This document shows positions 4,123-43,249 of a stretch of 64,000 nucleotides of DNA, in pieces. A program made the position numbers and the translations under genes. Below the pieces are notes generated by a model. It saw only the letters and a list, made by a program, of their open reading frames with translations, made no database searches and was not told the DNA's origin. The DNA comes from Terriglobia bacterium. GTDB taxonomy: Bacteria > Acidobacteriota > Terriglobia > Terriglobales > Acidobacteriaceae. The first letter of the stretch is position 1, and the number at the start of each line of letters is the position of its first letter. The stretch is taken from NCBI GenBank assembly GCA_020072845.1, contig JAIQGF010000007.1, positions 186,001-250,000 on the forward strand. The letters run 5' to 3'.

Positions 4123-4812
4123 TTAGCGCCGAGCGACGCTCGCCTCGTCCTTTCGCTGGTCCAGCAGCATGCGGGCGTTCTGAACCACCTCGATGAATCG
4201 GCGGGCGGCTTGGCAAATCACGTGGTTATTGCCGGCGTTGAGTGCGGCCGAGGAAACCAGCTCACCGCCGACGCCCAAGGCAACTGCGCCCGCGAGAATA
4301 AAATCTGCCGCGGTCTCCAGGTTCACGCCGCCGGTTGGCACCATCGGGACTTGCGGGAGCGGGCCGCGAAGCGCCTTGATGTAGCTAGCGCCGCCCAGTT
4401 CGCCACACGGGAAGATCTTCACGAAGTCCGCGCCCGCTTTCCAGGCATTCATCACCTCGGTGGGAGTAAGGGCGCCGGCCATCATCACGATGTCCCGAGA
4501 CTTGGCAAAATCCACTGTCTCGTAATCCAGTCCAGGGCTGACCAGAAACTGCGCGCCGGCATCGGCGCACTGTCTGGCGGTGGCCGCATCGAGTACCGTT
4601 CCTGCCCCAACCAGCACCTCCGACCCCATGGACCTGGCCACCTCGCGAATCAGATCAACCGCCCCCGGAACCGTCATGGTGATTTCGGCGACAGGGATGC
4701 CCCCGAGGCATACCGCCTCGATGGCCATCATCGCCTGTTTTGCGGAAGCTGCCCGGACTACCGGAACGATGCCGACTTGGGTGATCTGATGGCGCACTTC
4801 CTGCTTAGTCAT
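4123..4812 (-). CDS. eda: KDPG aldolase
   Basis: A 229-aa class I aldolase of the KDPG/KHG family, cleaving 2-keto-3-deoxy-6-phosphogluconate to pyruvate and glyceraldehyde 3-phosphate. Characteristic segments: GIVPVVR near the N-terminus, the GAGTV strand, the Schiff-base lysine in DFVKIFP, and the phosphate-binding VPTGGV loop. It is the last gene of the minus-strand kdu block (kduI-like, kduD, eda), 42 bases after kduD, so it completes the unsaturated-uronate pathway. A ribosome-binding site (AGAGGCGAG) precedes the ATG. Confidence 0.93.
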   Translation of the reverse strand: MTKQEVRHQITQVGIVPVVRAASAKQAMMAIEAVCLGGIPVAEITMTVPGAVDLIREVARSMGSEVLVGAGTVLDAATARQCADAGAQFLVSPGLDYETVDFAKSRDIVMMAGALTPTEVMNAWKAGADFVKIFPCGELGGASYIKALRGPLPQVPMVPTGGVNLETAADFILAGAVALGVGGELVSSAALNAGNNHVICQAARRFIEVVQNARMLLDQRKDEASVARR

Positions 4813-4854: not shown

Positions 4855-5616
4855 TCATCGGGCCATCCAGCCTCCGTCCACGAGGAGAATATGGCCGTGG
4901 ACGTAATTGCTGGCCGCGGAGCTGAGAAAAACTGCCGCACCCCCCAGGTCCGAGGGTTCGCCCCATCGCCCGGCGGGAATGCGTTCCAGGATTTGCCTGG
5001 AACGTTCCGCATCCTTGCGAAGAGCGGCGGTGTTGTCGGTTGCCATGTATCCGGGCGCGATGGCGTTGACATTGATCCCCTTGCAGGCCCACTCATTGGC
5101 GAAGGCCTTGGTCAGGGCGGCCACCCCCGACTTCGCCGCCGCATAAGAGGGCACCAGCACGCCACCTTGAAACGCCAGCAGCGAAGCGATATTGATGATC
5201 TTCCCACTACCTTGCTTCAGCATGTGCCGCGCCGCCAGTTGCGAAAGACGGAATACCGAGGTCAGGTTTACTGCGATGACTTCATCCCAGTATTGTTGCG
5301 GAAACTCGGCGGCCGGCGCGCGGCGTATGGTGCCGGCGTTGTTGACCAGAATGTCGATCGATCCGAACTCGTCCACGGTTCGCTGAATCAGTGCAGAGCA
5401 GACCTTCTCCTCGGCCACGTCGCCCGACATGAAAAACGCCTTGCGGCCAAGCCGGAGAACGTGGTCGCGGATGTCGCACGGCTCCGGAGTCAGCCCATGG
5501 CAGCCGACGTTGGCCCCGGCTTCGGCCAGCGCACGGGCAATCCCAAAGCCAAGCCCACTCTGCGAGCCGGTCACGAGCGCATTCTTACCTTCGAGTCGGA
5601 AAGCATCCAAGATCAC
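4855..5616 (-). CDS. kduD: 2-dehydro-3-deoxy-D-gluconate 5-dehydrogenase (KduD)
   Basis: A 253-aa classical short-chain dehydrogenase. It has the nucleotide-binding TGSQSGLG motif, NNAG, the catalytic serine in NIASLLAF and the YAAAK tyrosine/lysine pair. Overall sequence and length match KduD, which interconverts 2,5-diketo-3-deoxygluconate and KDG. Translation appears to start at GTG (5616) with AAGGGG upstream; no ATG is available near the N-terminal LEGKNALVTG motif. It lies between the IolB/KduI-like isomerase and eda, in exact pathway order. Confidence 0.88.
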   Translation of the reverse strand: MILDAFRLEGKNALVTGSQSGLGFGIARALAEAGANVGCHGLTPEPCDIRDHVLRLGRKAFFMSGDVAEEKVCSALIQRTVDEFGSIDILVNNAGTIRRAPAAEFPQQYWDEVIAVNLTSVFRLSQLAARHMLKQGSGKIINIASLLAFQGGVLVPSYAAAKSGVAALTKAFANEWACKGINVNAIAPGYMATDNTAALRKDAERSRQILERIPAGRWGEPSDLGGAAVFLSSAASNYVHGHILLVDGGWMAR

Positions 5617-5635
5617 GGTAGCGCCCCTTACGATT

Positions 5636-5661: not shown

Positions 5662-5675
5662 TTCGCAACCACCAT

Positions 5676-6506
5676 CTACTTCTTACGCCCGGCTTCCAGG
5701 CCTGAGCCCCCGCCGTCGAATCCGGGCTGCACATTCACCACGCCAAACTGGCGGTCCAGGACCTCGCGGTGCGCGGCCATGGCCCAGAGGAAGCAAATAC
5801 GATGGCCCGGAACCGAGACGTTGGGATGATAACCGGTGGGCATCAGCACCGCATCGCCATCGCGCACCACGGTAACCAAATCGGGGTAGTCAGGGTTGTT
5901 GTAAACCATCTGGATTCCGAAGGCCGGCGCCGGCATGTTGAAGTACACATACATCTCTTCGAGCATGGCGGCGTGCTCGTGCGGCGGCCAACTGGTCCAA
6001 TTGCCGGGATCGGACCAGGTGAAGCCCGCCACCAGCCTTCCCGCTTCAACGTTTTTCGCGATCGCCATGTGCAGGTGGCGCGACGCGTTAGTTCCGGACC
6101 CGGCCTGGAAGACCAATCCCGGATCCTTCAGTATTTCGGCGTAGCGCACGACCTGTAGAGGGTACCGGTGTTCGACATCGGCGGAGAACTCAGCGATATC
6201 AACAAGGCTGCCGCTCATGACTTCGACGAAAGACTCTCGCGGGATGTAGATCGAGTCGTATTGGCCAAGTTGGAACGACTGGCTCGCTACCTTCAGCGTG
6301 GCTTCCCCCGAGAGCACAATGAGGCCCGTCTCGCGATTCCCATTGCTGAAGGAAACGGCTGGCTTTGAGGAATTCAAAATGATGCGGCCGTAAGCCAGGT
6401 GCTTATTGGTGCTGTTTTCGGGAGTAACCGAGATGACCCGGCCGGTATGGGAGTTGGTGCCCCGGAACACCATCTTGTCGACGGGAACGTTCGACTGGTT
6501 GTTCAT
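5676..6506 (-). CDS. IolB/KduI-family cupin isomerase
   Basis: A 276-aa two-cupin protein. The second cupin carries WPPHEH and EEMYVYFNM, giving metal ligands H, H, E, with a further histidine in GYHPNV. These motifs are those of 5-deoxyglucuronate isomerase (IolB) rather than classical E. coli KduI. No other inositol genes are present. The gene precedes kduD and eda and follows a TonB receptor, so the likely reaction is isomerisation of 5-keto-4-deoxyuronate to 2,5-diketo-3-deoxygluconate, that is, an IolB-type enzyme doing the KduI step. Family is clear; the exact substrate is inferred from context. Confidence 0.8.
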   Translation of the reverse strand: MNNQSNVPVDKMVFRGTNSHTGRVISVTPENSTNKHLAYGRIILNSSKPAVSFSNGNRETGLIVLSGEATLKVASQSFQLGQYDSIYIPRESFVEVMSGSLVDIAEFSADVEHRYPLQVVRYAEILKDPGLVFQAGSGTNASRHLHMAIAKNVEAGRLVAGFTWSDPGNWTSWPPHEHAAMLEEMYVYFNMPAPAFGIQMVYNNPDYPDLVTVVRDGDAVLMPTGYHPNVSVPGHRICFLWAMAAHREVLDRQFGVVNVQPGFDGGGSGLEAGRKK

Positions 6507-6563
6507 GACTCCGGACCTACGTGGCGGTTGGCATCATGTTCTTGGCCCCTTCAGCTTGGAAAC

Positions 6564-6595
6564 CCGGGCGGCAGGCACCGTGGACTGCCGCCCGG
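6564..6595 (-). other. Perfect 11-bp hairpin downstream of the TonB receptor gene
   Basis: CCGGGCGGCAG pairs without mismatch with CTGCCGCCCGG around a ten-base loop, between the stop of the TonB receptor and the start of the isomerase gene. On the transcribed strand it is followed by GTTTCC, not a T-tract. It may act as a partial terminator or a 3' stabiliser that gives receptor mRNA and enzyme mRNA different levels. Confidence 0.6.
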
Positions 6596-6603
6596 ATTGT
6601 CGG

Positions 6604-10032: not shown

Positions 10033-10114
10033 GGCGATTCTCCAAACTGCCCTTCGGCTAGGAAGTTGGTAAAGCTCCCAAGGATCGGTCCGGGGCTGCT
10101 GGGCGCACAAAAAC

Positions 10115-11209
10115 CTATCGAGTGACGCGCGCGCTTGCCCCCTTCATTACTTTCTCGACTTCCGGCAGCGTCGCCATCGTGGTGTCTCCGGGTGTGGTCA
10201 TGGCCAGTGCGCCATGCGCCGCTCCGCATTCGACAGCCCACTGGGGCTCGCGGCCGGTCAGAAACCCATAGATAAGACCGGAGGCAAAGGAATCGCCTCC
10301 GCCAATACGATCCAGGATCGCGAGACTTTCCCGACTCGTGGCGCGATAGAGTTTCCCGTCACAAAAGCAGACGGCACTCCAGTCGTTGATACTTGCCGAC
10401 CTCACATGGCGCAGCGTGATGGCAACCGCCTTGATCCCGGGAAAGGCGGCCACCACGCGCTCGATCATGCGGCAGAAGTTTTCCGGATCCAGCTTCGAAA
10501 GGTTTTCATCCAGGGTCTCGACTTCGAACCCCAGGGCGGCGGTGAAGTCCTCTTCGTTCCCGATCATCACGTCCACCAACGGAGCCAGCTCGCGGTTGAT
10601 CTTCTGCGCCGCCGGCTTGCCGCCGGCCGACTTCCACAGTGACTCGCGGTAGTTGAGGTCGTAGGAAACGACGACCCCGTGCTGCCTTGCCGCCTGCATG
10701 GCTTCCTTGGCAACGCCCGGCGTGGTTTCGGAAAGCGCGGCAAAGATTCCGCCGGTGTGGAACCAGCGCGCACCCTCATGCGCAAAAATCCCGGTCCAGT
10801 CGATGTCGCCGGGCTTGAGTTGCGAAACCGCGGTGTGCCCGCGATCGGAGCAGCCCAGGGCCGCACGCACCCCAAATCCTCGCTCCGTAAAGTTGAGGCC
10901 ATTCCGCACCGAGCGCCCCACCCCGTCATACGGCACCCACTTCACATGCGACTGGTCCACGCCGCCCTGATAGATAAGGTCCTGGATGAGCCTGCCCACC
11001 GGGTTATCGGCGAACGCGGTGACGATCGCCGTGTCCATTCCGAAACAACGCTTCAGGCCGCGGGCGACGTTGTATTCACCGCCGCCCTCCCAGGCGCGAA
11101 AAGTGCGCGTGGTATGGATGCGCTCATCCCCGGGATCGAGCCGGAGCATGACTTCCCCCAAGCTGACCAGGTCCCACTTGCAACCGGCCTTGGGCTTACT
11201 CTGCAACAT
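10115..11209 (-). CDS. kdgK: PfkB-family sugar kinase, probable KDG kinase
   Basis: A 364-aa ribokinase-like enzyme. It has the N-terminal glycine motif in GGGEYNVARGL, and near the C-terminus the anion-hole/catalytic-base motif GGGDSFASG. Two segments (NYRESLWK and IGNEEDF) are shared with the second kinase of this window (26808-27890). In the block with kduD and eda the expected reaction is phosphorylation of 2-keto-3-deoxygluconate to KDPG. The ATG at 11209 is favoured, with AAGGG upstream. KDG kinase is the best reading; specificity within PfkB cannot be read from sequence alone. Confidence 0.8.
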   Translation of the reverse strand: MLQSKPKAGCKWDLVSLGEVMLRLDPGDERIHTTRTFRAWEGGGEYNVARGLKRCFGMDTAIVTAFADNPVGRLIQDLIYQGGVDQSHVKWVPYDGVGRSVRNGLNFTERGFGVRAALGCSDRGHTAVSQLKPGDIDWTGIFAHEGARWFHTGGIFAALSETTPGVAKEAMQAARQHGVVVSYDLNYRESLWKSAGGKPAAQKINRELAPLVDVMIGNEEDFTAALGFEVETLDENLSKLDPENFCRMIERVVAAFPGIKAVAITLRHVRSASINDWSAVCFCDGKLYRATSRESLAILDRIGGGDSFASGLIYGFLTGREPQWAVECGAAHGALAMTTPGDTTMATLPEVEKVMKGASARVTR

Positions 11210-11294
11210 CGAATTGCCCTTCACCCGGCTGGGGTCGCATGGCGGAAGGAAAGCAGGTTCGCATTCCCTCCGTCATGTTGCCGCCCCGGCGGCC

Positions 11295-12101
11295 TCATGC
11301 TTTCGCCCGAAGGCGCTGCTTGGCGGGCGCCGCGGCCACTTGCGCACTGTAGCCAAGCTTTTTCGAAACGCCCTTGCAGGCCGCGATCAGCGCGTTCGCA
11401 ATCTTGCTTTCGCCTTCCAGAATTCGATGGACCGGCCCGGAGACACTCATGGCCGCGATGGGCTGCCCGCTCTCGTCGAAGATGGGCGCCCCGATGCAGG
11501 CCACACCGGGCTCGTTCTCCTCGTTGTCGACCGCATAGCCCCGCTGGCGCGCCAGTTCCAGCTCCTTGCGCACGGTTTGCAGGCGCTGCCGCGAAAGCTT
11601 GGCGAGATAGAAGAAGTAGGGAGAACGCGAATCGTCCGCTCCCAGAAAAGCCAACATCGCCTTTCCCATGGACGTCTGGTGGGCCGGCATGCGGCATCCC
11701 ACGGTCGCGCTCATGCGGAACGGACGCGCACTATCCACAATCTGCAGATAGAGAACGTTGCCGTCGTCGAGCACGCTGAGGTTCACCATCTCGTTAAAGC
11801 GCTCGCGCAGTTCCAGCATCAGCGGGCGGGCGATGTCCTTGATGTCGCGGCGGACATGGGTGGAGAGCTCGAACAACTTGATGCCCAGCATGTACAGGCT
11901 GCCATCGGCGCTGCGCTCCACGTAACCGCGCTTGGCCAGGGTGTGCAGCAGCCGGAACGTGCGGCTCTTGTTCAACCCGACCCGCCGGCTGATTTCGATC
12001 AACGTAAGGCCTTCGCTGCCGCCAAAGACTTCCAGCACATCCAGCGCCTTGGCGACCGCATCCACAACGTACTTGCCGGAGGTGGTTCGCGCTACCTTCA
12101 T
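11295..12101 (-). CDS. IclR-family transcriptional regulator (KdgR-like)
   Basis: A 268-aa protein with an N-terminal winged helix-turn-helix (about residues 10-70, containing LTLIEISRRVGLNKSRTFRL) and a C-terminal effector domain with the IclR segment HQTSMGKAMLA and GVACIGAPI. KdgR-type members sense KDG and repress pectin genes. It heads the minus-strand kinase/receptor/kdu block. The ATG follows directly on a 35-bp element (12102-12136) that recurs in front of uxaE, arguing for autoregulation and joint control of both divergent blocks. No ribosome-binding site is visible before the ATG; the mRNA may be leaderless. Confidence 0.88.
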   Translation of the reverse strand: MKVARTTSGKYVVDAVAKALDVLEVFGGSEGLTLIEISRRVGLNKSRTFRLLHTLAKRGYVERSADGSLYMLGIKLFELSTHVRRDIKDIARPLMLELRERFNEMVNLSVLDDGNVLYLQIVDSARPFRMSATVGCRMPAHQTSMGKAMLAFLGADDSRSPYFFYLAKLSRQRLQTVRKELELARQRGYAVDNEENEPGVACIGAPIFDESGQPIAAMSVSGPVHRILEGESKIANALIAACKGVSKKLGYSAQVAAAPAKQRLRAKA

Positions 12102-12554: not shown

Positions 12555-13859
12555 ATGACCTCATCCGCGACTCATTCCCTGGCATCCTCAGCCGGCCTCC
12601 GCCTCGCGAGATACTCTTTGGGCGTCGGCGACCGCTTTGCCCATCAGGCCCGGGCTCAGTTGCGCGCCTGCGTCATGGCTGCGCAGCGTGGCGTCGAGAT
12701 CATTCCGGTCTGGAACAAGTCGAACCGCGAACACCTTATTGTTGGTTCCAAGCCTGGGAGTGTGCGTGCCGCCGCCGAAAAGGCAGTGCGCGAACTGGAA
12801 TGGACCAGGCCCTTCCACGTGGACGCCGACCACATCAACCTCGACACCGTGGACGGCTTCCTGCCATCGAGCGACTTCTATACCCTGGACGTTGCTTACG
12901 CCATTGGCAAACCATCGGAGGCGTCGGCAATCGACGCATTTATCCACCGCCATCCTGAGTTGCTGCGGCCCATCGAACTGCAAGGCCGCGGGTTCTCGCG
13001 GCAACTGTCGCGCGAAGGGTTGGCGGAGATTGCGACCAAGTACCTGTTCGCCACCCTGGAGGCGGGCAGGATTTATCGGCACATCGCGGGCGCGCTGGGA
13101 ACGGGCGCCTTCATCACCGAAGTCTCGATGGACGAAACCGACACTCCCCAGAGTCCAGCCGAGTTGTTGGTGATCCTCGCGGCCCTGTCCGATGAGGGCA
13201 TTCCGCTGCAAACGATTGCGCCGAAGTTCACCGGCCGCTTCAACAAGGGCGTGGATTATGTGGGAGACGTCGCGCAGTTTGAAGTCGAGTTTCGCAGCGA
13301 CCTGGCGGTAATCGCTCATGCCATCCAGGTCTACGGCCTGCCTGCCCAGTTGAAGCTGAGCATCCATTCTGGCAGCGACAAGTTCTCCATCTATCCGGCC
13401 ATCCGCCGCGCCTTGCGCGAAACCGGGGCCGGCGTGCATGTAAAGACTGCCGGCACCACCTGGCTCGAAGAACTGGTCGGACTGGCGGAAGCCGGCGGCG
13501 ATGGACTTGGACTGGCGAAGGAGATCTACGCCGAGGCGCACGCGCATCGTGATGAGCTGTGCGCTCCGTACGCAGCCGTGATTGACATCAGCGCAGGGAG
13601 GCTGCCCTCCCCGCAACAGGTCAACGGGTGGTCGTCACAGCAGTACGCCAACGCTCTGCGTCACGACCAGAAGTGTCCCGAGTACAACTCCGATTTCCGC
13701 CAGTTGCTGCACGTTGGCTATAAGGTCGCCGCCAAGCTGGGCCAGCGCTATCTGGACATGCTGGTGGCGTGCGAAGACTCCATCTCACGTAATGTGATCG
13801 CCAACTTGTACGAACGGCATATCACCCCGATTTTCCTGGCTGGGGACGCGTCAGCGTAA
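12555..13859 (+). CDS. uxaE: Tagaturonate epimerase (UxaE)
   Basis: A 434-aa protein of the tagaturonate-epimerase family, which converts D-tagaturonate and D-fructuronate into each other. Recognisable conserved blocks are PKFTGRFNKGVDYVGD and IHSGSDKFSIYP, with acidic and histidine residues likely to bind a metal. In organisms with UxaE the galacturonate branch is channelled into fructuronate, so tagaturonate reductase and altronate dehydratase are not needed; neither is seen here. It precedes uxaC by 24 bases in one operon. GAGGG before the ATG supports the start. Confidence 0.85.
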   Translation: MTSSATHSLASSAGLRLARYSLGVGDRFAHQARAQLRACVMAAQRGVEIIPVWNKSNREHLIVGSKPGSVRAAAEKAVRELEWTRPFHVDADHINLDTVDGFLPSSDFYTLDVAYAIGKPSEASAIDAFIHRHPELLRPIELQGRGFSRQLSREGLAEIATKYLFATLEAGRIYRHIAGALGTGAFITEVSMDETDTPQSPAELLVILAALSDEGIPLQTIAPKFTGRFNKGVDYVGDVAQFEVEFRSDLAVIAHAIQVYGLPAQLKLSIHSGSDKFSIYPAIRRALRETGAGVHVKTAGTTWLEELVGLAEAGGDGLGLAKEIYAEAHAHRDELCAPYAAVIDISAGRLPSPQQVNGWSSQQYANALRHDQKCPEYNSDFRQLLHVGYKVAAKLGQRYLDMLVACEDSISRNVIANLYERHITPIFLAGDASA

Positions 13860-13883: not shown

Positions 13884-15350
13884 ATGGGCTTTATCAACGA
13901 AGACTTCCTTCTGCACTCGGAAGCCGCCAAGCGCCTTTATCACGGCTATGCCGAGCAGCAGCCGATCCTGGACTATCACTGCCACCTCTCGCCCCGAGAC
14001 ATTGCCGAGAACCGCAGCTTTCGCAATCTTTTCGAAATCTGGCTGGAAGGCGACCACTATAAGTGGCGCGCCATGCGAACCAACGGCGAGTCCGAGCGCT
14101 ACTGCACCGGCGACGCTTCTCCGTTCGACAAGTTCCTGGCTTGGGCCCGCACGGTGCCGCACACGATTCGCAATCCCCTTTTCCACTGGACGCATCTCGA
14201 GCTGAAGCGCTACTTCAGAATCGATGACCTCCTCAATGAGCGCACCGCCCGCGAGGTATGGGAGAAGGCGAACGCCCAACTTGCAGGAGAAAGCCTTCGC
14301 ACCCAGGCCATCCTGAAGAAGTTCAAGGTGAAGGCCGTTTGCACCACCGACGATCCTGCTGACGACCTCGCCTTCCACCGGCAGATTGCCGGCCGGCCGT
14401 TCGGCACGCGTGTCTATCCGGCGTTCCGGCCCGACAAAGCGCTCAACGTCCACCACCCCGACCTGTTCAACCCGTGGGTAGATCGCTTGGCTTCGGCCAG
14501 CGACGTCGATATCGTCAAGCTCGAGAGCTTTCTGGCTGCCCTCCGCCAGAGGCACGACTTCTTCCACGCCATGGGCGGCCGTCTTTCCGATCATGGCCTG
14601 AACTACTGCTATGCCGATTTGTGTTCGGAATCGACGGCGGCGCGCATATTCGACAACGCGCGTGCCGGAAAGGCCGCTACGCCGGTCGAGCAGCACCAAT
14701 TCGCGTCGTTCATGATGCTCTACTTCGGCCACCTCGATGCCGGGAAAGGCTGGACCAAGCAGTTGCATCTGGGTGCGCTCCGCAATGCGAATACCCGCCT
14801 GCTGCAACAACTCGGTCCCGACACCGGCTCGGATTCCATTGGCGATTGGCCGCAGGCCGAGGCGCTTGGCCGCTACCTGGACGCGCTTGATCGCGAGCAT
14901 GCGCTGCCGAAAACCATCCTGTACAACGTGAACCCGGCTGATAACTACGTCCTCGCCACCATGATCGGCAACTTTCAGGACGGGTCGGTGGCCGGAAAAA
15001 TTCAGTTCGGCAGCGGGTGGTGGTTCCTCGATCAGAAGGAAGCCATGCAATGGCAGATCAATGCCCTGTCCAACGCCGGCCTGCTGTCGCGTTTCATCGG
15101 CATGCTCACGGATTCGCGCTCCTTCATGTCCTATCCCCGCCATGAGTACTTCCGCCGCGTGCTGTGCAATATGCTCGGGGCCGACATGGAAAGTGGCGAG
15201 TTGCCCGGCGATGAAGCGCTCATCGGCGGCATGGTGCAGAACATCTGCTTCGAAAACGCCCGTCAGTATCTCGGATTGGAACTCGACTTGGGCACGACCG
15301 AAAGCGCAGCCGCCGGCAAGCAGTTGGCGAAGTGCGGAGAACCGGCATGA
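13884..15350 (+). CDS. uxaC: Uronate isomerase (glucuronate/galacturonate isomerase)
   Basis: A 488-aa amidohydrolase-fold enzyme of the usual UxaC length. It interconverts D-galacturonate and D-tagaturonate, and D-glucuronate and D-fructuronate. The metal-site motif YHCHLSP (H32, H34) is present, and conserved segments such as VNPADNYVLATMIGNF and GSGWWFLDQ follow. AGGAGGAG lies upstream of the ATG. The stop overlaps the ATG of the next gene (ATGA), showing translational coupling with the GH105 gene. Confidence 0.95.
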   Translation: MGFINEDFLLHSEAAKRLYHGYAEQQPILDYHCHLSPRDIAENRSFRNLFEIWLEGDHYKWRAMRTNGESERYCTGDASPFDKFLAWARTVPHTIRNPLFHWTHLELKRYFRIDDLLNERTAREVWEKANAQLAGESLRTQAILKKFKVKAVCTTDDPADDLAFHRQIAGRPFGTRVYPAFRPDKALNVHHPDLFNPWVDRLASASDVDIVKLESFLAALRQRHDFFHAMGGRLSDHGLNYCYADLCSESTAARIFDNARAGKAATPVEQHQFASFMMLYFGHLDAGKGWTKQLHLGALRNANTRLLQQLGPDTGSDSIGDWPQAEALGRYLDALDREHALPKTILYNVNPADNYVLATMIGNFQDGSVAGKIQFGSGWWFLDQKEAMQWQINALSNAGLLSRFIGMLTDSRSFMSYPRHEYFRRVLCNMLGADMESGELPGDEALIGGMVQNICFENARQYLGLELDLGTTESAAAGKQLAKCGEPA

Positions 15351-16735
15351 GGGGAGCAGCGACCATCGTCTTCGGAAGAGTGCTGCCCTTCGTCCTGGCG
15401 GTCACCATCGGCGCGATCGCACAGCAGACCCAGGCGGCGGTTCCTCAGCAGCCGGGGCGCAGCGATCCATCGTTCACAGAACCTTCTCTCGCGCCGGGCG
15501 TGGACTATACCGTTCCCACCGAGACCGAGATCAAGGCCACGCTCGATCGCATTCTTGCTCACTTCGTCCGCTCCACACCGTATCGCATCATTGACTCCAG
15601 TACCGGCAAGCCAATCACCGACTTCTCTCATCCGGTGAAAACCGCCGAAGTCGATCTCAGCAACGGGGAGTTCAACGACTGGACCTACTCTACCGGCGTT
15701 GCGCTGGCCGGCATGTTGCACGTTGCCGATGTGACCGGGGACCGGCGCTACCAGGATTACGCGCTCAAGAACTTCGACTTCATCTTCGACCACCTCAATT
15801 ACTTCCGCCGCCAGGCCCAGCAGTTTGGGCCGCAGCCGCACGGCTATCGCCGACTGCTGGCGATGCATGAACTCGATGACTGCGGCGCCATCGGCTTTGC
15901 ACTCGTCAAGGCCTATGCGAAGAAGCAGGATCCGCGCTACCGCGAAACCATCGACGTAGCTGCCGATTTCGTCTCCCACAAGATGACGCGCATGCCCGAC
16001 GGCACGCTGGCGCGCCCGCGGCCGCTGCCGGTCTCCATCTGGACCGATGATATGTACATGAGCATCCCGCTGCTGGCGCAGATGGGGCACCTCACGGGCG
16101 ATGGCAAGTACTTCGACGATGCCGCCCGGCAGGCCATACAGATGTCGGCACGCGTCTTCAACCCCGCCAATGGACTCTACGACCACGCCTGGTTTCAAGG
16201 AGTGGATCACGACCCTAGGTTCTACTGGGGCCGCGCCGACGGCTGGGCGCTGATGTCGCTGGCGGAACTGTTGAGCGTGATGCCGGACAATCATCCAGAT
16301 CGCGCACGCGTGCTCGAACTCTTCCAAGCGGGTATTCGCGGGGTCGCCGAACTGCAAGGCAGCACTGGCCTGTGGCACCAACTGCTCGATCGTACCGACA
16401 GCTATCTGGAGACGTCGGCATCGGCGATGTTTACCTTTGCCATTGCGCGTGGAGTGAATCGCGGCTGGCTTAGCCCGATCTATGCCCCGGTTGCGCAAGC
16501 CGGCTGGCAGGCGGTAGCCAAGCGCGTGCGCGAGAGCGGAGAGATTGACGGCATCTGCGTGGGCACGACCGCTGCCTATGATGCCGTTTACTACTACCAC
16601 CGTCCGACCAGTACCCGCGCCATGCAGGGCTACGGCCCTACCCTGCTCGCCGGCGCGGAGATGATCCAGATGCTCCGGTCATTCGATGTCGAGCGCAAGC
16701 TCAACACCTTTCATTACCGTCCGCGCGGGAAATAG
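15347..16735 (+). CDS. GH105 unsaturated rhamnogalacturonyl hydrolase
   Basis: A 462-aa secreted or periplasmic enzyme. After a signal peptide ending near AQQTQA comes an (alpha/alpha)6 barrel of the YteR/YesR type. The catalytic aspartate is in MHELDDCGAIGFAL, and WTDDMYM is a typical substrate-pocket motif; later WGRADGWA is also family-typical. It hydrolyses the unsaturated uronic acid from oligosaccharides made by pectate or rhamnogalacturonan lyases, giving 5-keto-4-deoxyuronate for the KduI step. The start chosen overlaps the uxaC stop by four bases. No lyase gene occurs in the window. Confidence 0.88.
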   Translation: MRGAATIVFGRVLPFVLAVTIGAIAQQTQAAVPQQPGRSDPSFTEPSLAPGVDYTVPTETEIKATLDRILAHFVRSTPYRIIDSSTGKPITDFSHPVKTAEVDLSNGEFNDWTYSTGVALAGMLHVADVTGDRRYQDYALKNFDFIFDHLNYFRRQAQQFGPQPHGYRRLLAMHELDDCGAIGFALVKAYAKKQDPRYRETIDVAADFVSHKMTRMPDGTLARPRPLPVSIWTDDMYMSIPLLAQMGHLTGDGKYFDDAARQAIQMSARVFNPANGLYDHAWFQGVDHDPRFYWGRADGWALMSLAELLSVMPDNHPDRARVLELFQAGIRGVAELQGSTGLWHQLLDRTDSYLETSASAMFTFAIARGVNRGWLSPIYAPVAQAGWQAVAKRVRESGEIDGICVGTTAAYDAVYYYHRPTSTRAMQGYGPTLLAGAEMIQMLRSFDVERKLNTFHYRPRGK

Positions 16736-17926: not shown

Positions 17927-17949
17927 CGCCCGCGGAAGAAGGGGGAAAG

Positions 17950-19548: not shown

Positions 19549-19552
19549 GATT

Positions 19553-20821: not shown

Positions 20822-20890
20822 ATTAGATCCCAGATGAGTGGCCACAGGTCAGCGGCGTTAGGATAGACCAATATGTTTAGCAAAACAAAA

Positions 20891-21076: not shown

Positions 21077-21913
21077 ATGGCCAGCAGCAGCCCAATGCAT
21101 ACTCCTCAGCGCGGCAACGGCAAGGCGACCTGGAAAGGGAGCGCCGAACAAGTGGTTTCCTTCGTACGCCACTTGATCGAGCGCGGTCAGTTGTGCCCGG
21201 GAGACCGTCTGTCGGCCGAGCGGGACCTGGCCCTGCAAATCGGCGTCAGCCGTCCCACGGTTCGCGTCGGCCTACGGGCCTTGTCCGCCATGGGGGTGGT
21301 GCAGTCGAGACCTGGTTCGGGAACCTACATCACTGCGGGGCCGCCGAGTTTGGGTACTGAGCCGCTGAATTTTCAGGCGGCGCTGCACGGGTTTACTCAG
21401 GAACAAATGTTCGAGGCACGCCGCATTCTCGAGGTTGGCGCAGCGGGATTGGCGGCACAGCGCGCCCGGCCGGAAGCGATCGCCAAAATTGCCGATGAGG
21501 TCAGCAATCTGTTTGCGGCGATCGACGAAAAGGAACTTTTCCTGGTCCACGACATGAGTTTCCACCGTGCGGTGGCAGCAGCATCGGAGAATCCGATCGT
21601 TGCGTCATTGGTGGAGATGGTCTCCACTCTTTTCTACGAGAGGCGCAAACAGACGGCGAGGCTGGCGACCGATACCAATCTTCGCGATGCAGCCCAGATG
21701 CACCGGCTTGTCTATCAGGCGATTCGCGCTCACGATCCCGAAGCCGCACGATCCGCCATGGACAAGCACCTGCTGATATCCGGCCAACATCAGGCGCAAG
21801 AGCAATCCGGCACAGAGCGCAGGTCTGCTTTATTGCCAGGGCCTGGTTCGCGTAGCGGGAATGAGCGCTCCCCGCGGAGAAGAAAGGGAAGGCAATATCG
21901 AGGCGATGAATAG
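21077..21913 (+). CDS. GntR/FadR-family regulator
   Basis: A 278-aa regulator. The N-terminal winged helix (about 20-85) has GDRLSAERDLALQIGVSRPT and a wing RPGSGTYI. The C-terminal FCD-type helical ligand domain (about 100-240) follows, with histidines suited to metal or carboxylate sugar binding. ExuR/UxuR are the family's hexuronate sensors. Here it heads the SDR-larA-gnd-exuT-kinase operon. Its last codons overlap the start of the SDR gene by eight bases. ATG 21077 is preferred over the earlier TTG, which would sit against the candidate operator, though no clear ribosome-binding site is seen. Confidence 0.85.
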   Translation: MASSSPMHTPQRGNGKATWKGSAEQVVSFVRHLIERGQLCPGDRLSAERDLALQIGVSRPTVRVGLRALSAMGVVQSRPGSGTYITAGPPSLGTEPLNFQAALHGFTQEQMFEARRILEVGAAGLAAQRARPEAIAKIADEVSNLFAAIDEKELFLVHDMSFHRAVAAASENPIVASLVEMVSTLFYERRKQTARLATDTNLRDAAQMHRLVYQAIRAHDPEAARSAMDKHLLISGQHQAQEQSGTERRSALLPGPGSRSGNERSPRRRKGRQYRGDE

Positions 21914-22742
21914 TTACGAGGGGTTCATCAAAGCTTTTGACTTTACCGGGCAAACGGTGGTGATCACTGGCGGCGCCGGCGTCCTGGGCGGCGAAATGGC
22001 GTGCGCCCTGACCGGCTGCGGCGCGCAGGTCGCCATTCTGGACCTCAACCTCGAACCCGGCAAGGCACTCCTGGAGCGAATGGGCAAGCGCGCCGCGCAG
22101 ACCGAACTGTTTGCCTGCAACGTGCTTCAGGTTGACAGCCTGAAGAAGGCGGCGGCCGACGTCCTGGCCCGTTTCGGAAAGATCGATTGCCTGATCAACG
22201 CCGCGGGAGGAAACAAGCCCCAGGCAACCACCAGTGCTGAGCTGAAGTTCTTCGACCTGCCCACCGAAGCGCTGCGCTGGGTTTTCGACTTGAACATTCT
22301 CGGAACCATCCTGCCGTGCCAGGTCTTCGGCAAGATCATGGCGGAGCAAGGGCACGGAACCATCCTGAATATTTCCTCGATGAATGCCTTTCGCCCCCTG
22401 ACTCGCATTCCCGCGTATTCGGCGGCCAAGGCGGGCGTCAGCAACTTCACCCAATGGCTGGCGGTGCACATGGCCCAGGAGTGCTCGCCGCGCATTCGCG
22501 TCAACGCCATTGCGCCCGGATTCTTCCTCACAGAACAGAACCGGTTCCTGCTGACGGATCGCGACACCGGCGCATTGACCGCGCGCGGCAAATCGATCAT
22601 CGCCCACACTCCCATGGCCAGGTTTGGTGAAGCCGAAGATTTGTTTGGCGCCGTGCTGTGGTTGTTGTCGCCCGCGTCCGCGTTCGTTACCGGCACGGTG
22701 GTCGCGGTCGACGGTGGTTTCTCAGCCTACAGCGGTGTTTGA
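21906..22742 (+). CDS. SDR oxidoreductase, probable fructuronate reductase / D-mannonate oxidoreductase
   Basis: A 278-aa classical SDR with TGGAGVLGG, NAAGG, the catalytic NISSMNAF serine and YSAAK. It matches the SDR-type D-mannonate oxidoreductase (Bacillus-type UxuB), which reduces fructuronate to D-mannonate, rather than the long-chain E. coli UxuB. GAGG precedes the ATG at 21906, inside the end of the GntR gene. It lies after UxaC/UxaE chemistry in the pathway and before the LarA-like epimerase. Specificity is inferred from the family and context. Confidence 0.78.
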   Translation: MNSYEGFIKAFDFTGQTVVITGGAGVLGGEMACALTGCGAQVAILDLNLEPGKALLERMGKRAAQTELFACNVLQVDSLKKAAADVLARFGKIDCLINAAGGNKPQATTSAELKFFDLPTEALRWVFDLNILGTILPCQVFGKIMAEQGHGTILNISSMNAFRPLTRIPAYSAAKAGVSNFTQWLAVHMAQECSPRIRVNAIAPGFFLTEQNRFLLTDRDTGALTARGKSIIAHTPMARFGEAEDLFGAVLWLLSPASAFVTGTVVAVDGGFSAYSGV

Positions 22743-22754
22743 AGGAGCGAAGAG

Positions 22755-24026
22755 ATGACGGTCGGAAGAGGATCTGCCGTTGGATACTTGAGTGCCGATG
22801 ACATGCGGCAGATCGTTTCCGAGGCGATTGCCACGGCCGCCTTCGATGGCAAACGCATTCTGATCATTATCCCGGATGGGACACGCACCATGCCCATGCC
22901 GGAAATGTTTGTAATTTTTCGAGAGCTGCTGCGGCCGCGGACGAAGGCGCTGGACTACCTGGTTGCCTTGGGCACCCATCCTCCCATGAGCGATGCGCAG
23001 CTAAGCAAGTTGGTCGGCCAGCCGGTGGTGGATGGGAAGGCAGGCGATTCCTACGTCTTCAACCACCGCTGGGAAAACCCAGAGAACTTTATCCGGCTCG
23101 GCGCCATCCCTGCTCTGGATATGGAGCTGATTACCAGCGGCCTCATGTCGCAAGAAGTGCCGGTCACGCTCAACCGGCTGATCCTCGATTACGACCATCT
23201 TGTGGTCTGTGGCCCGGTGTTCCCGCACGAAGTGGTCGGGTTCTCGGGCGGCAATAAATACTTTTTCCCGGGCATTGCCGGCCCGGAGATCATCAACTTC
23301 ACGCACTGGCTGGGCGCCGTGATCACCAACTACGAGGTGATCGGCGCGGGCTACACGCCGGTGCGGGCGGTGATTGATCGCGCCGCCGAAATGATTCCCC
23401 GCCCCAGGTCCTGTTTCGCGCTGGTCGTCACCCATGAGGGAGTCGCCGGCTTGTACTTCGGATCTCCCCAGGAGGCGTGGACCGCGGCGTCGGCACTTTC
23501 GGCCCGCAAGCACATTGTCTATGTCGAGCGGCCGTTCCGTCGCGTGCTGTCCATCATGCCGGAGATGTACGACGACTTGTGGACCGCGGCCAAAGGCATG
23601 TACAAGATCGAGCCTGCGGTTGCCGACGGCGGCGAAGTCGTCATCTACAGTCCGGGCCTTACCGAGGTCAGCTATACCCACGGAAAGCTGATCGATCAGA
23701 TTGGCTACCACTGCCGCGATTACTTCATGAAGCAGTGGGACCGCTTTAAGCATTTTCCGGGCGGAGTACTGGCGCACTCGACGCACGTCAAAGGCCTCGG
23801 CCAGTACGACGCCAGTACTGGGATTGAAACTCCACGCATCAAGGTGACGCTGGCCACCGGTATTCCCGAAGAGCGCTGCCGCCGCATCAACCTGGGATAT
23901 CTGAACCCGGCAACCGTTCATCTCGACGAGTGGCGTGGTCGCGAGGACGAAGGCGTGGTCGCGATCCCGCGCGCCGGCGAAATCCTGTTCCGGCTCAAGA
24001 GAGCGACGATGGCAGCGGCATCGTAG
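22755..24026 (+). CDS. LarA-family nickel-pincer racemase/epimerase
   Basis: A 423-aa member of the lactate-racemase family. The DGTR motif (41-44), a catalytic histidine in ALGTHPP (H75), and PHEVVGFSGGNKYFFPG are present, with H158, K168 and H184. The spacing of these three (10 and 16) equals that of H174, K184 and H200 in Lactobacillus LarA, that is, catalytic base, lysine linked to the nickel-pincer nucleotide, and nickel ligand. LarA homologues include 2-epimerases of sugar acids. Between a mannonate-forming reductase and 6-phosphogluconate dehydrogenase, the likely reaction is D-mannonate to D-gluconate. The cofactor-making LarB/C/E proteins are not in this window. AAGGAG precedes the ATG. 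Confidence 0.85.
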   Translation: MTVGRGSAVGYLSADDMRQIVSEAIATAAFDGKRILIIIPDGTRTMPMPEMFVIFRELLRPRTKALDYLVALGTHPPMSDAQLSKLVGQPVVDGKAGDSYVFNHRWENPENFIRLGAIPALDMELITSGLMSQEVPVTLNRLILDYDHLVVCGPVFPHEVVGFSGGNKYFFPGIAGPEIINFTHWLGAVITNYEVIGAGYTPVRAVIDRAAEMIPRPRSCFALVVTHEGVAGLYFGSPQEAWTAASALSARKHIVYVERPFRRVLSIMPEMYDDLWTAAKGMYKIEPAVADGGEVVIYSPGLTEVSYTHGKLIDQIGYHCRDYFMKQWDRFKHFPGGVLAHSTHVKGLGQYDASTGIETPRIKVTLATGIPEERCRRINLGYLNPATVHLDEWRGREDEGVVAIPRAGEILFRLKRATMAAAS

Positions 24027-24036
24027 GAGAACCAAC

Positions 24037-25440
24037 TTGGCATACAAGATCGGCATCGTGGGTTTGGGCGTCATGGGGGCGAACCTCGCGCGGAACATGG
24101 AGCGCCATGGCTTTCCCGTCGCGGGTTATGATCTCGACCCGGCCAAAACACGCGCTTTCGCAGAAGGAGTGGATTCTCCCGCTGCCTTGATGCAGTGTCT
24201 GGAACGACCCCGGCGCATCCTGATCATGGTGCCTGCCGGTGCGGCGGTGGACAGCGCCATTGCCCACCTGAAGCCGCACTTGGAGCGCGGCGACATTCTG
24301 ATGGATGGCGGCAATTCCTTCTTCCTCGATACGGAGCGCCGCAGCAAGGCGCTCGAGGCGGAGGGATTCAACTTCATCGGTACGGGCGTTTCCGGCGGCG
24401 AAGAAGGCGCGCTCTGGGGCCCGGCGATCATGCCGGGCGGGCAGCGGGAAGCATGGGAGGCGGTCGCGCCCATTCTGAGGGCCATCGCGGCCCGCGCCGA
24501 AGACGGCGAGCCTTGCGTGGAATACATCGGGCCACGCGGCGCCGGGCATTACGTGAAGATGGTTCACAACGGAATCGAGTACGGGGATATGCAGTTGATC
24601 GCCGAGTGCTACGACCTGATGCATCGTGGCCTGGGGATCCCGGCGGCCGAATTGCATGCCATCTTCAGCGACTGGAACCAGCGGGAGCTGAAGTCCTACC
24701 TGATCGAAATCACCGCGAACATCTTCTCCAAGATCGACGATACCACCGGCAGGCCGATCGTGGACGTCATCCTCGACGAGGCCCAGCAGAAGGGAACCGG
24801 AAAGTGGGCCAGTCAGAACGCGCTCGACATCGGTGCGCCCATTCCCACGATTAATGCGGCGGTGGAAAGCCGGATCCTCTCCGCCCTCAAGCCGGAGCGT
24901 GTACGGGCTTCCACGCTACTGCGTGGTCCGAAGCCGGCCTACAGTGGAAACCGGAACAAGCTCATCAAGGCGATCGAGCAGGCGCTCTATGCCAGCAAGA
25001 TCACGTCGTATGCCCAAGGCCTGGCGCTGATGCGGATCGCCTCGGCCGAGTACAAGTACGAGCTGCGCCCCGGCGACATCGCGAAAATCTGGCGTGCGGG
25101 TTGCATCATCCGCGCGACGCTGCTGGGCGAAATCATGGCGGCTTACGACCGCGATCCTGGGCTCGTCAACCTTTTGCTTGATTCTGCTTTCCGTGAAGCG
25201 GTGGAGAGTCGTCAAGCGGCATGGCGCCTGGTCGTGCAGACCGCTGTCGGTATGGGCATACCCGTACTCGCCCTCAGCTCTTCGCTGGCCTACTTCGATG
25301 CCTATCGTAGCGAGCGGCTTCCGGCCAATCTGACGCAGGCGCAACGCGACTATTTCGGCGCACACACCTATCGAAGAGTGGACCGGGAAGGCGTATTCCA
25401 TACCGAGTGGTCGCATCCGGAAACGGGTACGCGGGTTTAG
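24037..25440 (+). CDS. gnd: 6-phosphogluconate dehydrogenase, decarboxylating
   Basis: A 467-aa enzyme of full family length, oxidising 6-phosphogluconate to ribulose 5-phosphate and CO2. The dinucleotide fold GLGVMG (9-14), DGGNS, and the catalytic GHYVKMVHNGIEYGDMQ block with lysine and glutamate are intact. The C-terminal FGAHTYRRVDREG substrate tail is also intact. Translation most likely starts at TTG (24037), eight bases after AGGAG; no ATG fits. Its place in a hexuronate operon right after a LarA-type epimerase is unusual and suggests that gluconate is an intermediate here. Confidence 0.93.
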   Translation: MAYKIGIVGLGVMGANLARNMERHGFPVAGYDLDPAKTRAFAEGVDSPAALMQCLERPRRILIMVPAGAAVDSAIAHLKPHLERGDILMDGGNSFFLDTERRSKALEAEGFNFIGTGVSGGEEGALWGPAIMPGGQREAWEAVAPILRAIAARAEDGEPCVEYIGPRGAGHYVKMVHNGIEYGDMQLIAECYDLMHRGLGIPAAELHAIFSDWNQRELKSYLIEITANIFSKIDDTTGRPIVDVILDEAQQKGTGKWASQNALDIGAPIPTINAAVESRILSALKPERVRASTLLRGPKPAYSGNRNKLIKAIEQALYASKITSYAQGLALMRIASAEYKYELRPGDIAKIWRAGCIIRATLLGEIMAAYDRDPGLVNLLLDSAFREAVESRQAAWRLVVQTAVGMGIPVLALSSSLAYFDAYRSERLPANLTQAQRDYFGAHTYRRVDREGVFHTEWSHPETGTRV

Positions 25441-25456
25441 GAACTGGAATAAGAAA

Positions 25457-26770
25457 ATGGCCGACACCGAAACGACCGGCTCCGCGTTAGCAGCACAGGT
25501 GGAAGGAGTTCAACAAGTTTCACCCGTAGGAAGACTCCGGTGGGTGATCTGTGGACTTCTGTTCTTCGCCGCTACGGTCAATTACATCGACCGCCAGGTG
25601 ATTGGACTTCTCAAGCCCACCTTGCAGGCACAACTGCACTGGAACGAGATCGATTACGGCAACATCGTTTTCTATTTCCAGGTCGCCTACGCCGCCGGTT
25701 TGCTGATCGTTGGACGGGTGATGGATTGGCTCGGAACCCGGAGAGGATTTGGACTGGCAGTGTTCGTTTGGAGCATTGCCGCCATGTGCCATGCAGCGGC
25801 TCGCTCGGTGTTCGGATTCTCCGCGGCCAGGTTCGCTCTCGGTTTGGGAGAGGCCGGCAGTTTTCCGGCCTCGATCAAAACTGTGGCGGAGTGGTTCCCG
25901 AAGAAAGAACGGGCACTGGCGACCGGGATTTTCAACTCCGGTACGAACGTCGGCGCCATTGTCACTCCCGTGGTCGTCCCCTGGTTGACCTACACCTACG
26001 GTTGGCAGATGGCATTCATCGCGACCGGCGCTCTGGGATTTGTGTGGGTTGTGCTCTGGGTCTGGTTCTATCGCGCGCCCGAGCTTCACTCCCGACTGTC
26101 GGCCGGGGAACTCGCTTACATTCGCAGTGATCCTCCGGACCAGGCCTCCTCCATACCGATGTTGAAATTAACCAAGTACCGCCAGACTTGGGCGTTCTGC
26201 ATCGGCAAGTTCCTTACCGATCCTATCTGGTGGCTGTATCTGTTCTGGGTGCCTGATTTTCTCCATCGGAACCATGGCGTGGATCTCAGCGGGATGATGC
26301 TTCCACTGCTGATCATTTACAACGTAGCCACAGTAGGCAGTGTTTTCGGAGGTTGGGTCTCATCTTCGCTCATTAAGCGCGGTTGGAGTGTCCACTCCAG
26401 CCGAAAAACAGCCATGCTGATGTGTGCCCTCGCCGTGGTGCCGATCGTTTTCGCGTCGCGAGTCTCCAGCCTGTGGGCGGCAGTCGCCTTGGTCAGCCTT
26501 GCTGCCGCGGCACATCAAGGTTGGTCGGCAAACCTCTTTACGGTCGCCTCTGATTTATTTCCGCGGCGTGCTGTGGGTTCGGTGGTTGGCATTGGAGGAA
26601 TGGCGGGCGCTATCGGCGGGATGCTCATCGCCAAGGTGGTTGGCTATGTGCTGCAGTGGACCGGCTCGTACGTGCTGGTCTTCATGATCGCGGGCTCCGC
26701 TTACCTGGTTGCTCTCCTTTTCGTTCACCTGCTTTCCGGTACTGGCAAACCAGTCCAGTTAGAGGTGTAG
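25457..26770 (+). CDS. exuT: MFS transporter, ExuT-like hexuronate permease
   Basis: A 437-aa, 12-helix major facilitator of the anion:cation symporter (ACS) group. RLRWVICGLLFFAATVNYID opens the first helix, the loop motif GRVMDWLGTRRG lies between helices 2 and 3, and RFALGLGEAGSFPA follows; all are typical of ExuT and related hexuronate carriers. It should import galacturonate, glucuronate or similar acid sugars across the inner membrane. It lies in the GntR operon 16 bases after gnd. Confidence 0.87.
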   Translation: MADTETTGSALAAQVEGVQQVSPVGRLRWVICGLLFFAATVNYIDRQVIGLLKPTLQAQLHWNEIDYGNIVFYFQVAYAAGLLIVGRVMDWLGTRRGFGLAVFVWSIAAMCHAAARSVFGFSAARFALGLGEAGSFPASIKTVAEWFPKKERALATGIFNSGTNVGAIVTPVVVPWLTYTYGWQMAFIATGALGFVWVVLWVWFYRAPELHSRLSAGELAYIRSDPPDQASSIPMLKLTKYRQTWAFCIGKFLTDPIWWLYLFWVPDFLHRNHGVDLSGMMLPLLIIYNVATVGSVFGGWVSSSLIKRGWSVHSSRKTAMLMCALAVVPIVFASRVSSLWAAVALVSLAAAAHQGWSANLFTVASDLFPRRAVGSVVGIGGMAGAIGGMLIAKVVGYVLQWTGSYVLVFMIAGSAYLVALLFVHLLSGTGKPVQLEV

Positions 26771-26807
26771 ATCGCCACGGTATTTCCAACTGTTCGGAGA
26801 CGAAGAG

Positions 26808-27890
26808 ATGGCTTCATCCTTGAAAATTCCTCACCTAGGTCGCTTCGATTTCCTGTCGCTGGGAGCTTTGGTCTGCCGACTGGACCCCGGGATCGTTCCC
26901 TTCCGCAAGGCGACACATTGTGACATGCATGTCAGCGGCGGCGAATACAACTGCGCCGCCAACCTGGCGAACTGCTTTGGCCTGCGCACGGGGATCGCGA
27001 CGGCGATGGTCTCCTACCCGATCGGCGATTTGATCGCCGAACGGGTGCGAGCCATGGGTGTGGTGCCGTTGTACAAGCATTTCACCCACGACGGCAGCCG
27101 AGGGCCGAACATGGCCACGGTTTACAGTGACCGCGGCTTCGGGGTTCGCCCGCCGGTGGTCTTTTACAATCGATCCAATGAGGCTGCCGCTCAGCTCCAA
27201 CCCGGAGATTTCAATTGGAAGTCGATTTTTGCGGAGGGCGTTCGCTGGTTCCACAGCGGTGGCATTTTCTCTTCGCTCTCCGAGACCACTTCGCAACTGG
27301 TGATCGAAGCCATGCAGGCAGCCAAGGCGGCTGGTTGCGTCACTTCTTTCGACCTGAACTACCGCGAAAAACTTTGGAAGGGTGCGGGCGGCGCTGCGCG
27401 TGCGCGAGATGTTTTGTGCGAGATCGCGAGGCATGTGGATGTCCTGGTCGGGAACGAAGAGGATCTGCAGAAAGGCTTGGGCCTTGCCGGGCCGGATGTT
27501 GCTGCCAAGTCGAAACTGGACCCTACCGTTTTCTTCTCCATGATGGAGACGGTGAAGAAGCGTTTCCCGAACGTGAAAATCGTCGCGACGACTCTTCGCG
27601 AAGTGCATTCGACGAATCGTCACAGTTGGAGCGCAGTGGCGTGGATTGACGGTCAGACCGTATCAGCGCCGGCGGCGGAGTTGGAAGTGTATGACCGCGT
27701 GGGCGGCGGCGACGGGTTTGCCTCGGGCTTCTTTTACGGGCTCATGAACGGCGAGTCGCCAGAACAGGCGATTCGCTTAGGGTGGGCGCATGGCGCTCTT
27801 CTTACCACGTTTCCGGGCGACACTACGATGGCGACTCTCGACCAAGTCCGAAGCTTCGCGGCAGGGGGCTCGGCACGCATTCAGCGGTAG
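26808..27890 (+). CDS. PfkB-family sugar-acid kinase (paralogue of 10115-11209)
   Basis: A 360-aa ribokinase-fold kinase, clearly homologous along its length to the kinase at 10115-11209: shared FHSGGIFSSLSETT/FHTGGIFAALSETT blocks, NYREKLWK and FPGDTTMATL. The active-site motif reads GGGDGFASG, not GGGDSFASG, and the substrate-side segment HVSGGEYNCAANL differs. It may be a second KDG kinase. In its own operon, with a mannonate/gluconate epimerase and gnd, gluconate (or mannonate) is an attractive alternative substrate. GGAG is present before the ATG. It is the last gene of the operon. Confidence 0.82.
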   Translation: MASSLKIPHLGRFDFLSLGALVCRLDPGIVPFRKATHCDMHVSGGEYNCAANLANCFGLRTGIATAMVSYPIGDLIAERVRAMGVVPLYKHFTHDGSRGPNMATVYSDRGFGVRPPVVFYNRSNEAAAQLQPGDFNWKSIFAEGVRWFHSGGIFSSLSETTSQLVIEAMQAAKAAGCVTSFDLNYREKLWKGAGGAARARDVLCEIARHVDVLVGNEEDLQKGLGLAGPDVAAKSKLDPTVFFSMMETVKKRFPNVKIVATTLREVHSTNRHSWSAVAWIDGQTVSAPAAELEVYDRVGGGDGFASGFFYGLMNGESPEQAIRLGWAHGALLTTFPGDTTMATLDQVRSFAAGGSARIQR

Positions 27891-28756: not shown

Positions 28757-29167
28757 TCAGAACAGAAATCCGTTTTCTAAACCGCTCACTTTAGAGCCAG
28801 CGCACATGACTTGCTCCCGCAGCGGGGCGCCCGCGAAGTCAAACCGCTCCGCGAAAAGTGGAGCTTGAATTACCAACTTAAGCGGACAGCCATTTCCGCC
28901 TTGCGCTGCGCCCAAAGGCGACATGCGCCCGAACGTCGTGGAAGCTCCCCGCAGGTATTCTTCGCTGTCCTTGCGTGCGGCGATCATCTGGGTGAAGTTG
29001 TTGTGCACGTAGAAATGACAAGCCTCGTGCACCAGGGTGCCGACGTCAACGCCGACCTGGACCAGGATCTTGCGCCCGGAGCGCGCGCCAGCGGTTGTCG
29101 TGATTCCCCCCAATGTACTCAGCGATGAGCTGCCGGGCGTCACCCGGAAGGGAGGAAAGCGGTTCAA
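28757..29167 (-). CDS. HExxH putative metalloprotease-like ORF
   Basis: A 136-codon frame containing VGTLVHEACHFYVHNNF, that is, an HEACH zinc-protease-type motif followed by another histidine and, further on, SEEYLRGASTTFGR, with a glutamate that could be the third ligand. The only start in reach upstream is a TTG that overlaps the TGA of the DUF4157 gene (TTGA); no ribosome-binding site is seen. It may be a coupled small toxin gene, or the frame-shifted C-terminal part of the DUF4157 protein. It is the last reading frame of the eCIS operon. Confidence 0.55.
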   Translation of the reverse strand: MNRFPPFRVTPGSSSLSTLGGITTTAGARSGRKILVQVGVDVGTLVHEACHFYVHNNFTQMIAARKDSEEYLRGASTTFGRMSPLGAAQGGNGCPLKLVIQAPLFAERFDFAGAPLREQVMCAGSKVSGLENGFLF

Positions 29168-30783: not shown

Positions 30784-30792
30784 CAGACAGCC

Positions 30793-33687: not shown

Positions 33688-33761
33688 GGATTGCTCCTTG
33701 CTTCGCAGTGATTGCTCGCCGGTGATTTCAGCAGTTTCGGCCCGACGCCCACATCCTTCTC

Positions 33762-40880: not shown

Positions 40881-40881
40881 C

Positions 40882-41262: not shown

Positions 41263-41274
41263 GTCGGTCTCGCG

Positions 41275-43246: not shown

Positions 43247-43249
43247 CGC

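Follow-up and report, generated by a model that had tools for sequence, protein, structure and literature searches.

A putative hexonate shunt with a PfkB-family kinase in a pectin locus of a Terriglobia bacterium

The described system closest to the locus analyzed here is the UxaR regulon of Thermotoga maritima, whose operon aldH-pelB-gnd-uxaRED-gntEK has most of its genes induced 2- to 5-fold on pectin (PMC3750489). Both PMC6978723 and PMC7583248 trace to Rodionova et al. 2012 the idea that mannonate reaches the pentose phosphate pathway by way of gluconate, and according to PMC6978723 those authors also pointed to homologues of gntE in Acidobacterium and Terriglobus. The galacturonate-phosphoketolase route of L. 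suebicus also leads from galacturonate to 6-phosphogluconate without UxuA, KdgK, or KdgA and is redox neutral; unlike in the scheme considered below, mannonate is phosphorylated there before it is epimerized, and the kinase and epimerase genes were not identified (PMC6978723). Here we describe a six-gene plus-strand operon at positions 21077-27890 of a 64,000-nucleotide window from a Terriglobia bacterium (assembly GCA_020072845.1, contig JAIQGF010000007.1, positions 186,001 to 250,000). The source genome, G000, is 4.23 Mb in size with a completeness rating of 100%, and its genus was sampled with four genomes (G000, G001, G002, and G003).

The operon probably encodes the Thermotoga-type hexonate shunt in an acidobacterial form, for which we infer the substrates, the order of the steps, the specificity of the kinase PfkB2, and the source of the nickel-pincer nucleotide (NPN) cofactor. 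The route read into this DNA by the initial annotation is an already published proposal, described for T. maritima together with an operon of almost identical content; the kinase variant looks new. The locus would represent a second, UxuA-free lineage for the pectin-to-gluconate route, with its only proposed kinase drawn from a different family, and a redox-neutral conversion of galacturonate to ribulose-5-phosphate is of interest for the use of pectin waste (PMC6978723).

The operon and the separate KDG branch

All six genes were found where the initial annotation had put them, in the same order and with matching families, and the operon is confirmed. It opens with a GntR/FCD transcriptional regulator (21077..21913; Pfam GntR and FCD), whose open reading frame begins at TTG 21050 and whose likely start is ATG 21077. 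The likely start of the second gene, ATG 21906, overlaps the 3' end of the regulator gene, and its product is a UxaD-like SDR fructuronate reductase/D-mannonate oxidoreductase (21906..22742; NCBIfam PRK08277, 368.8 bits; cut-off, 281). A predicted GntE-type hexonate 2-epimerase of the LarA superfamily follows (22755..24026; Lar_N, 82.4 bits; cut-off, 23.3), and then a decarboxylating 6-phosphogluconate dehydrogenase, Gnd (24037..25440; PRK09287, 670.3 bits, cut-off 413; TIGR00873, 640.7 bits, cut-off 426.7), with a likely TTG start at 24037 preceded by GGAG. The last two genes encode an MFS transporter of putative hexuronate/aldonate type (25457..26770; Pfam MFS_1), for which the best NCBIfam model, the D-galactonate transporter TIGR00893, scores 240.7 bits and thus falls below its cut-off of 395, and PfkB2, a predicted gluconate or mannonate 6-kinase (26808..27890; PfkB, 68.2 bits; cut-off, 25.8) that forms its own clade.

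As in the UxaR regulon, for which the same route was proposed, a GntR regulator, a uronate epimerase, an SDR reductase, a LarA-type epimerase, gnd, and a kinase share one pectin locus. The uronate epimerase, UxaE, a tagaturonate 3-epimerase predicted to supply fructuronate (12555..13859, plus strand; Pfam UxaE PF16257, 163 bits; cut-off, 27.1), lies 7 kb upstream, outside the operon's run of genes, next to the uronate isomerase UxaC (13884..15350, plus strand; Pfam UxaC, 657.9 bits; NCBIfam PRK02925, 600.7 bits, cut-off 387). Saturated uronates derived from pectin would be isomerized to fructuronate by UxaC and UxaE, the SDR would reduce fructuronate to D-mannonate, and the LarA/GntE-type epimerase would convert D-mannonate to gluconate. 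PfkB2 would then phosphorylate gluconate to 6-phosphogluconate, and decarboxylation by Gnd would yield ribulose-5-phosphate and regain the NAD(P)H used by the SDR.

T. maritima differs in also having uxuA and kdgAK-uxuBA. The initial annotation had reported no UxuA in the window, and this absence extends to the whole of G000 and to all four genomes of the genus. The matches of G000 to the enolase-superfamily MR/MLE models are MenC (331 bits; cut-off, 200.65) and one weak unnamed match of 32.4 bits, and an enolase-type ManD was ruled out since MenC is the only strong match. A search of G000 for UxuA and ManD, but not for IlvD/Edd-type dehydratases, thus found no mannonate dehydratase that would feed 2-keto-3-deoxygluconate (KDG).

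The initial annotation had gone further and proposed a complete bypass of KDG, which is overstated, for a separate KDG branch occupies positions 4123-12101 on the minus strand of the window. It comprises the predicted KDG kinase PfkB1 (10115..11224), a KduI/IolB-family isomerase (5676..6506; IolB, 110 bits, and KduI, 53 bits, both under their cut-offs of 205 and 250), a KduD 5-dehydrogenase (4855..5616; TIGR01832, 356 bits; cut-off, 338.85), a KDPG/KHG aldolase (4123..4812; TIGR01182, 194 bits; cut-off, 156), and an IclR/KdgR-like regulator (11295..12101) that matches IclR-family models and scores 149.9 bits with the KdgR model, below its cut-off of 275. This branch probably serves unsaturated uronates, which would pass through KduI/KduD, PfkB1, and the aldolase of 2-keto-3-deoxy-6-phosphogluconate (KDPG). 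Because UxuA is absent, the strong MR/MLE match is MenC, and the KDPG aldolase of the KDG cluster is the sole PF01081 match in a whole-genome search, the gluconate route appears to stand in for KDG with saturated uronates, the KDG branch being kept for unsaturated ones.

The predicted epimerase and kinase and their genomic neighborhoods

The closest solved relative of the epimerase is 4NAR, GntE2 of T. maritima (E value, 2.5e-63), followed at a distance by LarA (1.9e-08). GntE2, a D-gluconate 2-epimerase, converts D-mannonate to D-gluconate with a KM of 17 mM and a kcat of 197 per second (PMC7583248). The nickel-pincer signature reported in the initial annotation is present: H158, K168, and H184 are spaced by 10 and 16 residues, as are H174/K184/H200 of LarA and the corresponding residues of GntE2 (numbering from PMC7583248). 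With D41, R44, H75, and K280, the catalytic D, H, H, and K and the NPN-binding R, K, and H are complete at LarA spacing, and these seven positions are invariant in all 82 aligned rows. The loop residues E159-V160 and W276 of helix alpha-11 agree with the traits given for groups 18-20 (PMC7583248). GntE2 (LarAH20 in the same paper) shares the catalytic and NPN-binding residues, the loop E, and the alpha-11 W; its second loop residue is S, in contrast to V in the present epimerase.

A second type of LarA homologue, 29% identical and with an H-E-V loop, adjoins a P-loop gluconokinase in G009 (L058:9413-9838 and 10159-11103); this pair would separately connect a LarA homologue with gluconate.

PfkB2 is 46% identical to PfkB1, the other kinase of the window. 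In a tree of 43 kinases, whose midpoint root serves for drawing only and whose rows include no characterized KDG kinase, PfkB2 does not group with the kinases of KDG clusters but belongs to a separate clade (28 rows; support, 100/100), the KDG-kinase-like PfkB1 proteins forming another. This clade holds 16 of the 17 gnd-linked kinases, the exception being that of locus L068. Compared over 28 PfkB2 and 12 PfkB1 rows, the clades are conserved differently at 31 positions, among which are 118-125 of the presumed substrate loop. With the PfkB-family KDG kinases (2AFB of T. maritima and the 1V19 family), PfkB2 shares the fold and the Y-x-R and D-x-N-Y-R patches; it differs from them in the Y-D-R patch, where it carries N and not D. 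The gntK product of T. maritima is an FGGY kinase; here the operon's kinase is a PfkB protein instead, and FGGY kinases are absent from all four genomes of the genus.

Because the genus has neither an FGGY kinase nor a P-loop gluconokinase (0/4 genomes for each), PfkB2 is the best candidate for the kinase of the route. The initial annotation, which had suggested a search for gntK, had made the second PfkB protein a gluconate kinase; the lack of the other two kinase types speaks for this, and its specificity for gluconate is a prediction. PfkB2 orthologues of at least 69% identity occur in 7 of the 12 relatives with a LarA match below 1e-20 versus none of the 13 without one (25 genomes; Fisher p 0.0016, a value that ignores kinship and depends on a threshold picked after the data were seen). 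Standalone orthologues in G011, G029, G031, and G032 have no informative neighbors. No PfkB-family gluconate or mannonate kinase was recognized in the parts of the literature covered by our search, and a distinct PfkB2 clade that accompanies gnd and gntE in three phyla looks new.

The 84,980 named genomes scanned yielded 448 relatives of the epimerase, and genes within 8 kb of it were counted in the best 80. The SDR was found in 41 of these loci, Gnd in 39, PfkB2 in 20, and UxaE in 19, although many of the loci run into a contig end. Where each flank extends for 3 kb or more (45 loci), SDR is present in 31, Gnd in 25, and PfkB2 in 13. This clustering of the epimerase with SDR, Gnd, and PfkB2 exceeds chance. 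KDPG aldolase (KdgA) was a neighbor in just 2 of the 80 loci, and a single query, the UxuA of L046, found no UxuA neighbor in any of them. The SDR-GntE-Gnd neighborhood occurs in Acidobacteriota, Chloroflexota, and others, and several loci of Anaerolineae, among them L096, L099, and L105, carry the run UxaE-SDR-GntE-Gnd-PfkB2. The same Anaerolineae clusters hold a member of the inositol-hydrolase (IolN) family that scores over the IolN cut-off, which would be consistent with inositol-derived tagaturonate feeding into this route.

Counterevidence, alternative readings, and cofactor supply

Several observations weigh against the hexonate shunt as drawn above, and three alternative readings were considered. 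The mannonate KM values of the characterized GntEs are high, at 17 and 120 mM (PMC7583248), as might be expected if phosphorylation came first, in which case the LarA homologue would be a 6-phosphomannonate 2-epimerase and PfkB2 a D-mannonate 6-kinase; the end product would still be 6-phosphogluconate. Extracts of L. suebicus gave no gluconate from mannonate without ATP and 6-phosphomannonate with it, and the mannonate kinase of that organism has a KM of about 0.4 mM (PMC6978723). The 31 otherwise conserved positions at which the two kinases differ, 118-125 among them, are also consistent with this order. GntE2, however, turns over free mannonate at the rate given above, and the sequence features examined in the epimerase indicate no phosphate site; we regard phosphorylation before epimerization as rather unlikely. 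The gene content, the relationship to GntE2, and the absence of UxuA and ManD agree with the earlier route from fructuronate through mannonate and gluconate to Gnd, but they do not tell epimerization first from phosphorylation first.

The relatives of PfkB2 with solved structures are KDG kinases, and L068 has a PfkB1-type kinase where PfkB2 would stand. Moreover, gntE and PfkB2 stand beside the KDPG aldolase gene in G022 and L075, with no gnd there, an arrangement that would fit PfkB2 as a KDG kinase, and G022 also encodes a P-loop GntK. PfkB2 might accordingly be an ordinary second KDG kinase, with gnd and the epimerase serving other roles, e.g., gluconate uptake or aldonate interconversion. 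Against this stand the presence in the window's KDG cluster of PfkB1, which resembles the solved KDG kinase 2AFB (E value, 1.6e-61) more closely than PfkB2 does (1.4e-45), the failure of the UxuA and ManD search to reveal a dehydratase supplying KDG from mannonate, and the separate PfkB2 clade with nearly all of the gnd-linked kinases. On this evidence, a second KDG kinase is quite improbable. The role of Gnd in the hexonate shunt is favored by its presence in 39 of the 80 loci; the operon of G002 is a further point on the other side, for it lacks gnd, and gntE leads directly into the MFS gene (L054:10550-10584), although gnd was not searched for elsewhere in G002. Against the link to gnd drawn in the initial annotation stand this operon of a close relative and the two relatives with KDPG aldolase in place of gnd. 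Overall, the interpretation given in the initial annotation is partly supported.

The epimerase itself scores 179.1 bits with the NCBIfam hexonate-epimerase model NF052594, the top scorer among the five LarA models that match it. Because the cut-off of this model is 500, the epimerase is placed, by sequence, near the hexonate-epimerase group and not inside it.

LarC and LarE are needed for making the NPN cofactor. A search for LarC and for LarE over the cut-off, in which LarB was not included, found neither in any of the four genomes of the genus, whereas outside the genus each was found in 33 of 37 genomes; T. maritima, the positive control of the LarC search, has LarC. The initial annotation had named the absence of larBCE as evidence against its proposal, and for LarC and LarE this absence is what was found, though in a genus in which the epimerase is under selection. 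Of the 41 genomes, 22 encode a LarA homologue. The 19 LarA-bearing genomes from outside the genus all have LarC, and none of the 4 genomes there without LarC has LarA; G000, G001, and G002, the three of the four genus members that keep the epimerase, are exceptions to this rule, and G003 is without LarA too. Among 50 genomes examined from the named 80, LarC was found in 40; the 10 without it include G001, and incomplete assemblies may lie behind the other 9, for which completeness was not given. In L093, LarC- and LarE-like genes adjoin the epimerase gene.

The loss of LarC and LarE throughout the genus, together with that of LarA in G003, and the joint absence of LarC, LarE, and LarA from G010, G015, and G019 would suit an epimerase that is decaying or no longer uses NPN, in which case the route would not be running in this genus. 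The dN/dS of the epimerase within the genus is 0.104-0.127, however, similar to that of the other operon genes (0.042-0.145), and none of 121 positions judged near-invariant in 40 LarC-bearing rows is altered in the epimerases of the three genus members, where leave-one-out comparison among those 40 rows gave a median of 2 changed positions (range, 0-9). A pseudogene was ruled out on these two grounds. The epimerase is clearly under purifying selection and not decaying, and we consider this alternative highly improbable.

The set PMC11796402, PMC7583248, PMC12611868, and PMC11770544 mentions genomes, about 15%, that have LarBCE and lack LarA, and the available parts of these four papers make no mention of the reverse case, LarA without LarBCE. 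An epimerase kept under selection without LarC or LarE in its genus looks new. We read the missing genes as an unsolved matter of cofactor supply rather than as a refutation of the route. Tentatively, and with less confidence than in the hexonate shunt itself, we put forward the joint possibility that the genus scavenges NPN or a precursor from neighbors, or makes NPN with enzymes unrelated to LarC and LarE, and that the PfkB2 clade is a new aldonate 6-kinase family across at least three phyla. If the cofactor result holds, this would be a natural NPN enzyme retained by selection though two known synthesis genes are gone, and cofactor exchange or an alternative NPN pathway would become directly testable.

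Other families near the epimerase and in the window

Two further families recur near the epimerase in the 80 loci, the HAD-family C7 in 14 and the pyrophosphate (PPi)-phosphofructokinase-family C8 in 13. They and PfkB2 are mutually exclusive: C7 or C8 is found in none of the 20 PfkB2 loci versus 17 of the 60 others (p 0.0046), and the 39 Gnd loci include 14 with PfkB2, 14 with C7 or C8, and none with both (p 0.00035), both p values being uncorrected for kinship. C7 before gntE and C8 near gnd recur jointly in gntE-gnd clusters without PfkB2 (10 Gnd loci), and the loci with C7 and C8 include L081, L098, L107, L109, L112, and L128. C8 might serve as an alternative kinase for aldonates or phosphorylate sedoheptulose phosphate.

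GntR, UxaE, SDR, GntE, and Gnd all lie in one pectin locus of the window, in which UxaC is followed on the plus strand by a GH88/GH105-type unsaturated uronyl hydrolase (15332..16735; Pfam Glyco_hydro_88, 280 bits) and a DUF4861 protein (16754-17926; family match). The genes at 17854-20845 presumably encode a GH28-like pectinase and a pectin methylesterase.

Downstream of the operon, genes of the extracellular contractile injection system (eCIS) type (eCIS_core, Baseplate_J, Pvc16_N, and AAA ATPase) occupy 29164-48003 on the minus strand. Positions 58335-59924 encode a DUF362 protein, a family that serves as the outgroup of the LarA superfamily in PMC11770544.

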